Shown piece after piece: positions 18,598 to 21,163 of a DNA stretch of 21,163 bases (its first letter is position 1; each line of letters opens with the position of its first letter). Source of the stretch: a virus; IMG/VR virus record IMGVR_UViG_3300030117_000477, positions 1 through 21,163 of that record. The stretch is one strand, 5' to 3'. The notes under the pieces were generated by a model. It was not told the origin of the DNA. It worked only from the letters and a program-made list of their open reading frames with translations, and ran no database searches. The position numbers and the translations under genes are program-made.

Positions 18598-19491
18598 TTA
18601 TATACTCTTATTGTAATTATTACGTAATGTCAAGGCATTTTCTGCACTAGCATACGTATTTTTCATGTAAGGCTTGACCGATTGTGGGTTTGCATGACCT
18701 GTAACGGACATAATCTGACCCATAGGCACACCTGCTTCTACCATTTCAGTAGTTCCTGTCCTACGTAAGTCCGATATACGTAACTCATTCGGTAATCCTG
18801 ACTCTATTATTATCCTTCGTGCTACTTTTGACAGTCTTTGCATAGCATACGGACTGTAAACACCCTTCATTGGTGTTGGATAGGGTGCAACATAAGGTTG
18901 AAAGTCATAATCTTTTGCCTGTTCTTTAAGCATTTCTAATAAGTCAAGAGAAATAGGCAGGTGTACTACACTTCTTCTCTTTGACTGTTGCAAATTTAAC
19001 ACACCTTTGTCAAAATCTATGCTAGAAAACTGTAACATTCTCATATCTCCTACCCTCTGACACCATTCGTATGCCATTTGTACTATCAATCCTAAGTTTC
19101 TATACTTGAAATCGTTGTAACAGTAGTTAAGAAATATCCTAACTTGTTCTTTTGTCCAAGTAACATTCCTTATATGAGTAGTTTTTCTTTTGAAAGTAGA
19201 GAATGGATTGCTCTCTGCATACCCCATCTCCATTCCAAACGAATACATCTTACGTGCAACTGCACATACTGAGTTAGCTAAATAAGTTCCCCTACTTAAC
19301 CATACTTCGTATCCTCTTCGAGCAGTCGCACCTGTCATATCAGACAATAAAATACTTGACATCTTTTTTCCATCAACTTCTGTGTTCAACATAACGTTGC
19401 AACAGTATTGATAATCATGTTTAGTTTTGTCTGCTAAGTTATTGTAATCGTTAGACAAAAGGTACTTTTCATTAAGCGATTTTAAGTTCAT
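18598..19491 (-). CDS. int: Tyrosine recombinase / integrase
   Basis: A 297-residue protein with an N-terminal SAM-like core-binding region (about 1-105) and a C-terminal catalytic domain. Catalytic candidates are R146 (EWCQRVGDMR), K171 (QQSKRRSVVHLPI), R243 (ISDLRRT), H266 (SVTGHANPQ) and nucleophile Y275 (VKPYM). The usual first His of the HxxR box is Ser here (S240, codon TCG at 18772-18774). I chose the ATG at 19491 because GGAG lies five bases upstream; a longer frame to 19554 would add 21 residues in another gene's coding DNA. It sits inside the early operon between a Pyr_excise-like gene and primase. No att site or tRNA is visible beside it. Confidence 0.9.
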   Translation of the reverse strand: MNLKSLNEKYLLSNDYNNLADKTKHDYQYCCNVMLNTEVDGKKMSSILLSDMTGATARRGYEVWLSRGTYLANSVCAVARKMYSFGMEMGYAESNPFSTFKRKTTHIRNVTWTKEQVRIFLNYCYNDFKYRNLGLIVQMAYEWCQRVGDMRMLQFSSIDFDKGVLNLQQSKRRSVVHLPISLDLLEMLKEQAKDYDFQPYVAPYPTPMKGVYSPYAMQRLSKVARRIIIESGLPNELRISDLRRTGTTEMVEAGVPMGQIMSVTGHANPQSVKPYMKNTYASAENALTLRNNYNKSI

Positions 19492-19981
19492 TATTCTCCA
19501 TCCATTTTGGTTTCTCTGTATACTTGTACCTCGCAAATTTAGATTTGTCAACAATATAAAACTTTCTATATGCTTCTATAGGAAAGAACTCATCTGTCTT
19601 GAGGTCATCATGCCCACTAAAACATTGTGGGTGTGAAGTCATAACACCACAAGGTATGTGCCATCTACCTTCCCATAAGGCATCGTAATGTTTAGATGCA
19701 CCATGCGTCTTTTTATATCTCGCACTATACTCAAAGAGCATTGCTTTATATAAACAAAATGCCCATACATAGTTTGACCTGTTCTCCATCGCCCACAAAG
19801 TACATGGATGTTTTTGATGCACAGGTTTGTATATTCCATGTTCCTCTGCGTAGTCAGGTGCATGATGCCACAAGCTAGTACACAACATCTGTGCTTCTTC
19901 TAATGGCATCTTAACTATATGTTGGTCACACAAAGACTGTGCAATACCTATTGGGTTACGTTCTATAATAAATCTATTCAT
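19472..19981 (-). CDS. Pyr_excise-like conserved phage protein
   Basis: A 169-residue protein. Characteristic patches are CDQHIVKMPLEEAQML (18-33), YKPVHQKHPCTLWAMENRSN (51-70) and EYSARYKKTHG (84-94). Many phage and bacterial proteins with this pattern are annotated in or near the Pyr_excise family (pyrimidine-dimer DNA glycosylase, T4 DenV-like fold), but the catalytic N-terminal Thr of DenV is not evident (the protein starts MNRF), so enzymatic activity is unproven. If active it could repair UV damage, useful for a surface-ocean phage. The ATG at 19981 overlaps the preceding 27-codon gene (ATGA) and follows GGAG. Its end overlaps the integrase start by 20 bases. Confidence 0.6.
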   Translation of the reverse strand: MNRFIIERNPIGIAQSLCDQHIVKMPLEEAQMLCTSLWHHAPDYAEEHGIYKPVHQKHPCTLWAMENRSNYVWAFCLYKAMLFEYSARYKKTHGASKHYDALWEGRWHIPCGVMTSHPQCFSGHDDLKTDEFFPIEAYRKFYIVDKSKFARYKYTEKPKWMENNELKIA

Positions 19982-20061
19982 AATCCTACTCCAAAATATC
20001 CAAATAAAAATGCTACTGAACTAGCACCTAGTATTAACCAAATCCACTCTTCATTATTCAT
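19978..20061 (-). CDS. 27-residue single-segment membrane peptide
   Basis: A very short gene with ATG at 20059-20061 and TGA at 19978-19980. It has one of the strongest ribosome binding sites in the window (AAAGGAGGAG). The product is a short acidic-aromatic head (MNNEEWIW) followed by a hydrophobic helix (LILGASSVAFLFGYFGVGL), long enough to cross a membrane once. Its stop overlaps the next ATG as ATGA, and its start lies inside the end of the preceding membrane protein gene. The ribosome binding site and coupling support a real gene. Function unknown. Confidence 0.65.
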   Translation of the reverse strand: MNNEEWIWLILGASSVAFLFGYFGVGL

Positions 20062-20410
20062 GTTCTCCTCCTTTATCGTTGTTATCTAACTCAAACCTTT
20101 TACCATTATAATATATAGCACGACTACGACTAGGTGTATGATACCCCTTCTGTAGAAAGAAACTAGGCTTTCTTTTAGCAGTCTCAAACGTAGCCACAGT
20201 TAAAACAATAGCAGCCAATATAAACACATGGGCAATCGCAGTTATCCCAAACATCCACATACTACCAAAATACATAGAGAATACAATACACCACATCCAT
20301 GCTAACACTTGCATAACCATATGCCTAGTGTTTAAGTCAGGTATATGTCGCAAGGGATTGTATTCATAGTTCATGACAGATTGCCATGCATCATATATTA
20401 ATTTAATCAT
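20054..20410 (-). CDS. Two-segment membrane protein conserved in marine phages
   Basis: A 118-residue protein. The N-terminal part includes NYEYNPLRHIPDLNTRHMVM, which I recall from other marine phage and alphaproteobacterial proteins. Two membrane helices follow (about 33-50, VLAWMWCIVFSMYFGSMW, and 53-72, FGITAIAHVFILAAIVLTVA). The C-terminal part is basic then acidic (NNDKGGEHE). The ATG at 20410 follows GAGGAG by about eight bases and overlaps the previous stop by eight bases. Function unknown; it is likely inserted in the host inner membrane early in infection. Confidence 0.65.
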   Translation of the reverse strand: MIKLIYDAWQSVMNYEYNPLRHIPDLNTRHMVMQVLAWMWCIVFSMYFGSMWMFGITAIAHVFILAAIVLTVATFETAKRKPSFFLQKGYHTPSRSRAIYYNGKRFELDNNDKGGEHE

Positions 20411-20588
20411 GTGTCCACTCCTCTTGTTTACAAAACAAATCTATACCAAAGTCATAACCTTGATTATAATAATGGTGTGATTTTTTCTCATCTCTTGTGC
20501 CATGTATCATAGCATCTGTAACACCATCTTTAAAATTTTCTATGATTTTACACTCTTTAATTTGTTTTTCCAATTCTATTAAGTTCAT
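20403..20588 (-). CDS. Small protein with weak RMF-like pattern
   Basis: A 61-residue, acidic-to-neutral soluble protein. Residues about 20-52 read FKDGVTDAMIHGTR ... YYNQGYDFGIDL, a G-xx-DA-xx-G ... aromatic-xx-GY-xx-G pattern resembling the two helices of the RMF/CrpP-type small-protein fold. The match is weaker than in the protein at 8403-8672, and the basic N-terminus of RMF is missing. AAAGGAG lies eight to nine bases before the ATG. The start overlaps the previous gene as ATGA and the end overlaps the next gene by eight bases. Confidence 0.55.
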   Translation of the reverse strand: MNLIELEKQIKECKIIENFKDGVTDAMIHGTRDEKKSHHYYNQGYDFGIDLFCKQEEWTHD

Positions 20589-20719
20589 GACAATAACTCC
20601 TTTGCTACTTCAAATACTGCATATGCATACAATATTATTATTATTAATTTTAATGTCTTGTTGAATGAATCATCAGACATAACTTCCCAATGTGGTCTAT
20701 CTTTTTTCTTAGCCATCAT
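20585..20719 (-). CDS. 44-residue C-tail membrane peptide
   Basis: A small gene with ATG at 20717-20719 (a second ATG follows immediately) and TGA at 20585-20587. The product has a basic, polar head (MMAKKKDRPHWEVMSDDSF) and one C-terminal hydrophobic helix (LKLIIIILYAYAVFEVAKEL), the topology of a tail-anchored protein. AAAGGT lies upstream at a suitable distance. The start overlaps the previous stop as ATGA and its stop overlaps the next start the same way. Function unknown. Confidence 0.6.
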   Translation of the reverse strand: MMAKKKDRPHWEVMSDDSFNKTLKLIIIILYAYAVFEVAKELLS

Positions 20720-20850
20720 GATACCTTTATGGCTATATAAATACATAGTCCTATGATAACAAGTTTGCCATAGTCGAGGTCATACTTTGTGCCCTCTCCA
20801 TATCTTTTGTTGAAATCTATATTCAACCAATCTATTATTCTACCCCACAT
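20716..20850 (-). CDS. 44-residue C-tail membrane peptide
   Basis: A small gene with ATG at 20848-20850 and TGA at 20716-20718. The product starts with an amphipathic segment (MWGRIIDWLNIDFNKRYGEG), continues with a charged linker, and ends in one hydrophobic helix (GKLVIIGLCIYIAIKVS). AAGGAG lies six to eight bases before the ATG, in the 14-base gap after the methyltransferase stop. The stop overlaps the next ATG as ATGA. It is the first of a run of tiny coupled genes. Function unknown. Confidence 0.6.
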   Translation of the reverse strand: MWGRIIDWLNIDFNKRYGEGTKYDLDYGKLVIIGLCIYIAIKVS

Positions 20851-20864
20851 ATTTTTCTCCTTTC

Positions 20865-21163
20865 TTAGTTATAAACAAAATATCCTTTTTCATAATTAGT
20901 AGATGCTATCTTTTTAGGCAATAACATCTCCCCTAGTATGTGTGCAATCACATCAACTGTCCACCCATTGCCAATCATCTTGTATCTTTGTGTCTTTGAC
21001 ACACCCTCTGTATAATTGTCAGGCAGAGTCTGTAATCTCTCACACTCTACAGGTGTAAGTTTTCTCCATGTCATACCTTCTAGGTCAACAATCCTACCAC
21101 CTTTAGGTGAATAGGTTGCAACCTTTGGCTCTCTGTTACCACCTTGCATGGTAAGTAACGTAG
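20865..21163 (-). CDS. C5-cytosine DNA methyltransferase, C-terminal fragment
   Basis: An open frame running off the right edge, with TAA at 20865-20867. About 98 C-terminal residues are visible. LLTMQGGNREPKV resembles the end of the target-recognition region in Dcm-type enzymes. RKLTPVECERLQTLPDNY is motif IX, and QRYKMIGNGWTVDVIAHIL is motif X, with the usual GN. The catalytic Pro-Cys and SAM-binding motifs lie outside the window. Such phage enzymes methylate cytosine in a short target and commonly protect phage DNA from host restriction. The target is not readable from this part. An internal ATG at 21149 is not the real start because the frame stays open through typical family sequence. 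Confidence 0.85.
   Translation of the reverse strand, partial: TLLTMQGGNREPKVATYSPKGGRIVDLEGMTWRKLTPVECERLQTLPDNYTEGVSKTQRYKMIGNGWTVDVIAHILGEMLLPKKIASTNYEKGYFVYN

Follow-up and report, generated by a model that had tools for sequence, protein, structure and literature searches.

Phages of the HMO-2011 type are described as dominant and widely distributed in the ocean (PMC9038755), and a DnaJ-like CXXCXGXG zinc motif inside the polymerase has been described for the group (PMC9038755). The named podoviruses of this type (HMO-2011 and Roseobacter phages CRP-1, CRP-345, and CRP-603) have integrase, primase, helicase, and polymerase in that order, with accessory genes upstream of the integrase. 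The stretch analyzed in this study, IMG/VR record IMGVR_UViG_3300030117_000477 (21,163 bases with a G+C content of 35.6%; the whole virus record, hereafter the window), has the same gene order and the same placement of accessory genes. Its polymerase is nearest, among isolates, to that of Puniceispirillum phage HMO-2011 (61.7% identity over the full length), and the polymerase translation contains CRVCNGTG and a second, similar CIHCGASG. Because of the polymerase identity, gene order, and zinc motif, the window is assigned to an HMO-2011-type podovirus, of which it represents a fragment. The host of HMO-2011 is given in its record as Candidatus Puniceispirillum marinum, a SAR116 bacterium; SAR116 is the presumptive host group of the window phage only by way of this nearest isolate.

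Between a DNA methyltransferase gene and the integrase, at the head of the replication-gene strand, the window contains six minus-strand frames of 44, 44, 61, 118, 27, and 169 codons, here named A44, B44, C61, D118, E27, and F169. Two of the four predicted membrane genes in this chain (D118 and B44) are, as judged from their sequences, homologues of bacterial chromosomal proteins. The reading favored here, to which we give a probability of roughly 45%, is that these two host-like membrane proteins mimic host inner-membrane proteins early in infection. The confidences placed in this reading and in the alternatives discussed below overlap and do not sum to one. New in this study are the relatives of D118 and B44 in SAR116-type chromosomes and the organization of the genes as a chain of cassettes bounded by start codons.

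Cellular relatives of D118 and B44

A profile scan with D118 recovered 56 loci on bacterial genome contigs. Approximately 20 of these belong to SAR116 genomes (69-75% identity over nearly the full length), while other carriers include Rhodobacteraceae, Pelagibacteraceae, Porticoccus, Zhongshania, and more, with Zhongshania antarctica and Aliiroseovarius marinus among those named. D118 was found in 29 of the 58 genomes of a family with many SAR116 members (that of the genome behind locus L246, itself SAR116; L and G numbers are our own labels) and in 21 of 385 genomes sampled from the class. Its neighbors in several genomes, identified by eye, are ordinary chromosomal genes, and the phage and SAR116 versions have a tail in common (SRSR..Y..GKR..D.ND.GGEHE). 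In an unrooted tree of 99 rows and 112 columns, a branch with a support of 79/88, present in 78% of bootstrap trees, separates the 44 phage rows from all others. These comparisons identify D118 as a viral member of a broad, unnamed family of predicted bacterial inner-membrane proteins. An internal stop codon was observed in 2 of 29 host D118 genes (TAG in L256, SAR116 AG-390-L20, 6001-6342; TAA in G026).

The second host-like gene, B44, was found in 23 of the 58 genomes of the SAR116-containing family, with expect values (E) down to 2e-18, and is rare outside it (2 of the 385 genomes of the class). Its host relative is a protein of 84 residues with two hydrophobic stretches, and the phage version matches residues 39-83, the C-terminal half; identity over 41 residues is 36.6% for the window version (E 1.5e-9) and 51% for the version in L067. 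B44 and D118 lie within 4 kb of each other on one contig in 6 of the 13 genomes that contain both. Three phages (L038, L116, and L228) have B44 fused to another domain, which stands alone with a signal-peptide-like start in L048, L054, L067, L075, L080, L169, L346, and L371 and follows B44 directly, with a 4-base overlap, in four mapped cases (L054, L067, L080, and L169). This arrangement suggests a periplasmic location for the C-terminal end of B44. The exported-looking domain itself (WNDKPVMC...; L067:1649-1975, L228:3046-3516) has a weak relative (E 1e-3) in the T4-like Methylophilales phage Melnitz, which also has D118.

The chromosomal homologues of D118 and B44 argue against purely viral weapons and thus bear on the roles suggested in the original prediction, which had proposed early action on the host envelope through superinfection exclusion, membrane takeover, or defense inhibition. 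Early membrane action of the chain peptides is plausible but unspecific. Small proteins with one or two helices, encoded where the early strand begins, as here, are what would be expected of inner-membrane helices that block other phages or silence membrane-bound defenses, and the presence or absence of single genes between relatives is typical of exclusion and anti-defense accessory genes. However, PADLOC gave no match, no PHROG of known function was found for the membrane genes, and D118 is unusually conserved, which is not what would be expected of an arms-race protein, and has chromosomal relatives in free-living bacteria. Exclusion and defense inhibition are accordingly left without support and are considered unlikely.

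The genomic surroundings of D118 raise another potential explanation. Of 18 genomes, 4 (L291, L293, L295, and L298; Aliiroseovarius plus three gammaproteobacterial loci) have a gene of the photolyase/cryptochrome type no more than 6 kb from D118. That gene type is single-copy in 12 of the 18, and the expected adjacency is 0.05 (P 3e-7, post hoc, the 18 genomes having been picked from those behind the 56 loci after the neighborhoods had been seen). In addition, a MerR-type regulator lies near D118 in four gammaproteobacterial loci (L292, L293, L295, and L298). The photolyase, MerR, TspO, DCC, and CIA30 labels of these neighbors are presumed from the sequences rather than taken from a family search. 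Regulators of the LitR/CarH type control photolyase-type genes in Pseudomonas (PMC9758184), and the photolyase and MerR neighbors may mean that the unnamed D118 family belongs to a light-response cluster. A light or oxidative stress module, in which D118, tied to photolyase/LitR-type clusters, and F169 would together shield the infected cell or the phage DNA from sunlight, is nevertheless doubtful. F169 directly follows D118 in 6 of the 27 phage intervals that contain D118, but no such neighbors were found at the SAR116, Pelagibacteraceae, Porticoccus, or Zhongshania D118 loci, no solved glycosylase was matched by the F169 model, and D118 itself is not known as light-induced.

Several observations weigh against mimicry of host proteins. 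None of the 58 genomes of the SAR116-containing family has A44, E27, or C61; as a control, the models of A44 and E27 each recovered 3 of 3 phage records, while C61 had no such phage-record control. The tree gives no clear direction of D118 transfer, its genome rows forming no clade, and HMO-2011 itself has no D118 match. One D118 relative labelled Rhodobacteraceae (L271) lies amid genes that by eye look T4-like, and some of the genome rows probably represent phage contigs that were binned with bacterial genomes. The similarity between B44 and its host protein is short, the phage versions of B44 evolve fast (the ratio of nonsynonymous to synonymous differences, pN/pS, is 0.68 in a close subset of 8 sequences and as high as 1.35 in single pairs), and co-occurrence of B44 and D118 across the 58 genomes is not above chance (13 observed, 11.5 expected from 29 and 23). 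A host origin of E27 from a frame overlapping the end of host D118 was also considered and rejected, those host frames being mostly short and unlike E27.

Conservation and selection

The six frames are genuine genes, intact and under purifying selection in relatives. Scans of viral contigs, in which the best 80 relatives per scan were kept, confirmed 288 relatives of D118, 490 of F169, 85 of C61, and 458 of A44; the D118, F169, and C61 scans together with annotated records yielded 239 loci, or 128 once near-identical ones were removed. A44 is complete with an ATG in all 52 relatives, E27 is intact at 27 residues in 21 of 21, D118 is full length (118 residues) in 44 of 47 (two are shorter and one is cut), and F169 is complete in 79 of 80, while length and start vary among the relatives of B44 (39 found) and C61 (71 found, 8 cut). 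Pooled pN/pS over pairs of moderate divergence was 0.21 for A44, 0.52 for B44, 0.51 for C61, 0.15 for D118, 0.32 for E27, and 0.30 for F169, and constraint is weaker on B44 than on the other chain genes. Mean column identity of D118 is 90% over 35 rows, and the A44 alignment has 18 invariant columns in 43 rows, with a conserved YGEGTKFDLDYGKLLII.LCIYIA. Some wrong-frame stretches of 25-38 codons are also open in most relatives (a 25-codon stretch in 43 of 43, for example), and openness of a frame by itself is therefore weak evidence.

The expectation that the small frames would be conserved was borne out: relatives carry the same genes, intact, in the same interval, and neither broken frames nor ratios near 1, which had been named as grounds for abandoning it, were found overall, with B44 giving the weakest result. 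Among 56 non-redundant loci of a sample anchored only on the integrase, 16 reach from the methyltransferase to the integrase, and these contain F169 (13 loci), A44 (11), B44 (7), D118 (6), C61 (4), and E27 (2).

Organization of the gene chain

The features of the region are listed in Table 1. The six frames, their coordinates, and the five overlaps of 4, 4, 8, 8, and 4 bases listed in the original prediction were all reproduced by script. A44/B44 (20716-20719), B44/C61 (20585-20588), and E27/F169 (19978-19981) overlap by ATGA, while the 8-base overlaps are ATGATTAA for C61/D118 (20403-20410) and ATGAATAA for D118/E27 (20054-20061). F169 additionally overlaps the integrase by 20 bases (19472-19491), a junction missing from that list. 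The claim that the genes follow each other with overlaps only holds within the chain but not at its upstream end, where a 14-base gap separates the methyltransferase from A44. Purine runs resembling ribosome sites precede the starts, that of B44 (aaagg) being the weakest. The B44 frame could also begin at an in-frame ATG (53 codons; 20585-20746) that lies within the end of A44, 27 bases ahead of the coupled start.

Table 1. Coordinates of the genes from the methyltransferase to the integrase of the window.
Feature	Position	Strand	Description	Basis
Methyltransferase	20865..21163	-	Cytosine-5 DNA methyltransferase, C-terminal part, cut by the window end	Phage DNA methylases, 71-79% DNA identity over ~130 bases
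A44	20716..20850	-	44 residues, one predicted C-terminal membrane helix	Frame and relatives
B44	20585..20719	-	44-residue protein, one predicted helix	Frame and relatives
C61	20403..20588	-	61-residue protein, predicted soluble	Frame and relatives
D118	20054..20410	-	118 residues, two hydrophobic stretches	Frame and relatives
E27	19978..20061	-	27-residue peptide, one predicted helix	Frame and relatives
F169	19472..19981	-	Predicted soluble, pyrimidine dimer DNA glycosylase family (PF03013 / PHROG 624)	Profile matches
Integrase	18598..19491	-	Tyrosine integrase	77% DNA identity to the HMO-2011 integrase over 153 bases

As originally predicted, four of the six genes carry one or two hydrophobic stretches of membrane-helix type (one each in A44, B44, and E27 and two in D118), seen in the sequence and in a hydropathy scan of relatives. 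The D118 model (predicted local distance difference test score, pLDDT, 69.9; predicted template modeling score, pTM, 0.34) has one long helix at residues 26-79, and a fold search with it gave no PDB or viral match. Searches of Pfam, PHROGs, NCBIfam, and PADLOC returned nothing useful for A44, B44, C61, D118, E27, or the host versions; weak matches of the D118 family (Pfam DUF6136, E 0.0077 for 1 of 35 members; DUF6251, E 0.02 for 12 of 35; PHROG 37134, E 0.0072) were not used. The window contains no tRNA, and scans for promoters and terminators gave no signal clearly above shuffles (21 promoter sites compared to 16.4 expected, none of which stood out).

The description of the chain as one of membrane peptides applies to four of its six members but not to F169, which is predicted to be a soluble protein of the pyrimidine-dimer-glycosylase family. 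The PF03013 profile, that of the T4 endonuclease V family, is matched by 45 of 45 F169-family members (best E 1.2e-6), and F169 matches PHROG 624 at E 1.9e-40; the window protein taken alone reaches only 19.9 bits, below the curated cut-off of 23. Its model (pLDDT 76) gave a best Foldseek E of 4.7 and a best VIA Z of 4.2, to unrelated folds; the T4 endonuclease V fold was not recovered by this fold search, and a comparison of the F169 profile with solved chains found no glycosylase.

Cassette structure in related phages

Related phages show how such a chain is assembled. Of 49 related intervals with both ends, one named record was dropped, and a simple gene caller applied to the remaining 48 gave 338 frames, grouped into 32 families and 17 singletons. 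Overlaps occur at 278 of the 386 junctions, most commonly by 4 (110), 8 (54), or 1 (54) bases. The gene strings of all 48 intervals are different, and the six families alone form 29 different strings, while the integrase-primase-helicase-polymerase order, as far as seen, does not vary among the 48. Free shuffling of gene order, our first reading, is rejected, since relative order is mostly kept, with single gains and losses: B44 is ahead of D118 in 25 of 25 pairs, D118 ahead of F169 in 12 of 12, and D118 ahead of E27 in 8 of 8. Only A44 often moves, switching sides relative to every other chain gene save E27.

The exchanges are bounded by start codons. Where two intervals have the same downstream gene behind different upstream genes, identity is mostly 0.2-0.5 ahead of the start codon and rises to 0.6-1.0 behind it (D118, F169, A44, and E27); B44 and C61 are more diverged after the start codon in such pairs. 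Where the upstream gene is the same and the downstream gene differs, identity (mostly 0.8-0.9, D118 and E27) extends to the base immediately preceding the start codon, beyond which it is lost within approximately 9 bases. It follows from this switch in homology that the last codons of a gene bring the ribosome site of its successor, while its own stop codon comes from the successor. C61, for example, contains the ribosome site of its successor in its last codons, and the same tail stands ahead of D118, F169, and B44 in different relatives. Selection against every other breakpoint would be a sufficient cause of this pattern. The junctions thus show a simple rule by which operon genes can come and go in the absence of spacers, a swap at the start codon.

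The starts of interval genes also close both other reading frames early, within 12 bases in 35% of cases compared to 8% for the starts of replication genes and 11% for internal ATGs; within 30 bases, the proportions are 71% of interval starts and 62% of replication-gene starts. This is only suggestive of portable stop codons at interval gene starts, as the number of families is small, they are not independent of one another, and part of the effect is also seen for integrase and primase.

The variability of the interval is consistent with an explanation other than mimicry, namely that it is a dense landing strip for ordinary, unrelated small accessory genes, each of minor benefit and without a common role. 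All gene strings differ, and membrane-type families make up only 9 of the 32 by hydropathy, so that membrane peptides are not the defining trait of the region. However, relative order is largely kept, with only A44 really moving, and D118 and B44 have cellular relatives that lie close to each other in one host clade. A mosaic of this kind is possible but somewhat improbable.

A role in lysis appears very improbable. If D118 or the one-helix peptides were holins, a cell-wall hydrolase would be a natural partner, and a Hydrolase_2 gene is among the accessory families of the interval. However, the window interval has no hydrolase and no endolysin beside the chain, a putative endolysin of related phage CRP-1 is encoded separately, in the packaging module, D118 has chromosomal relatives, and the strand and position of the chain are those of early/replication genes. 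Mimicry of host proteins fits better than either exclusion or lysis.

Among the other contents of the interval in relatives, the Hydrolase_2/SleB-type cell-wall hydrolase (PF07486, E 5.5e-27; family f2, e.g., L061) accounts for 20 of the 338 frames, and DUF932-like genes are also present (f4; L034, L078, and L087; Pfam E 5.8e-4). Additional genes, read by eye, are presumably nuclease-like (f21; L071 and L113) and ADP-ribosylglycohydrolase-like (f23; L077 and L155).

Proposed role of the host-like membrane proteins

Under mimicry of host inner-membrane proteins, the chain would be a series of accessory gene cassettes that are linked by translational coupling and produced along with the replication genes. 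D118 would be a full-length copy, of host origin, of an unnamed bacterial inner-membrane protein, and B44 would correspond to the C-terminal half of the 84-residue host protein, lacking that protein's first membrane helix. Early in infection, both would become inserted into the inner membrane, D118 standing in for the host protein and B44 competing with its host counterpart at their normal partners, and the phage would thereby reset or sustain a membrane function as the expression of host genes breaks down. A44 and E27 would be phage-only helices that may assist or regulate D118 and B44.

A more far-reaching version is offered only as speculation. In it, coupled miniature host membrane proteins (D118 as a full-length stand-in and B44 as an amputated competitor), encoded in cassettes that each carry the ribosome site of their successor and take their stop codon from it, would jointly take over a conserved, unstudied inner-membrane process of sunlit-ocean bacteria, possibly a light/oxidative stress response that is encoded elsewhere beside photolyase and LitR-type regulators. 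If the membrane genes are indeed host copies, they would mark a membrane process that has to be under phage control and would offer a way into two protein families of marine bacteria that are still unnamed.

Comparison with known systems

In the available portions of PMC9038755, PMC12753301, PMC9758184, PMC5241685, and PMC11323111, no mention of the small genes of the chain was found, which is not proof of absence. Among 50,697 named phage records, B44, C61, and E27 had no match and A44 had one non-significant match (E 0.5), setting the window apart from the named HMO-2011-type podoviruses, while F169 matched 574 records. D118 matched five, representing only two T4-like phage types (four Melnitz isolates and phage C48C1). 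Gene 127 of Melnitz resembles D118 (59.5% identity over 79 residues) and likewise lies in a run of small, abutting genes; unlike D118, it lacks the long SAR116-type tail and groups with the Rhodobacteraceae-labelled rows, not with the podophages. Compared to the host-derived auxiliary genes of marine phages, the chain is similar in having families in common with the chromosomes of the likely host group. However, those auxiliary genes are enzymes of known pathways, whereas the chain contributes tiny, unnamed, predicted membrane proteins, one of them half-length.

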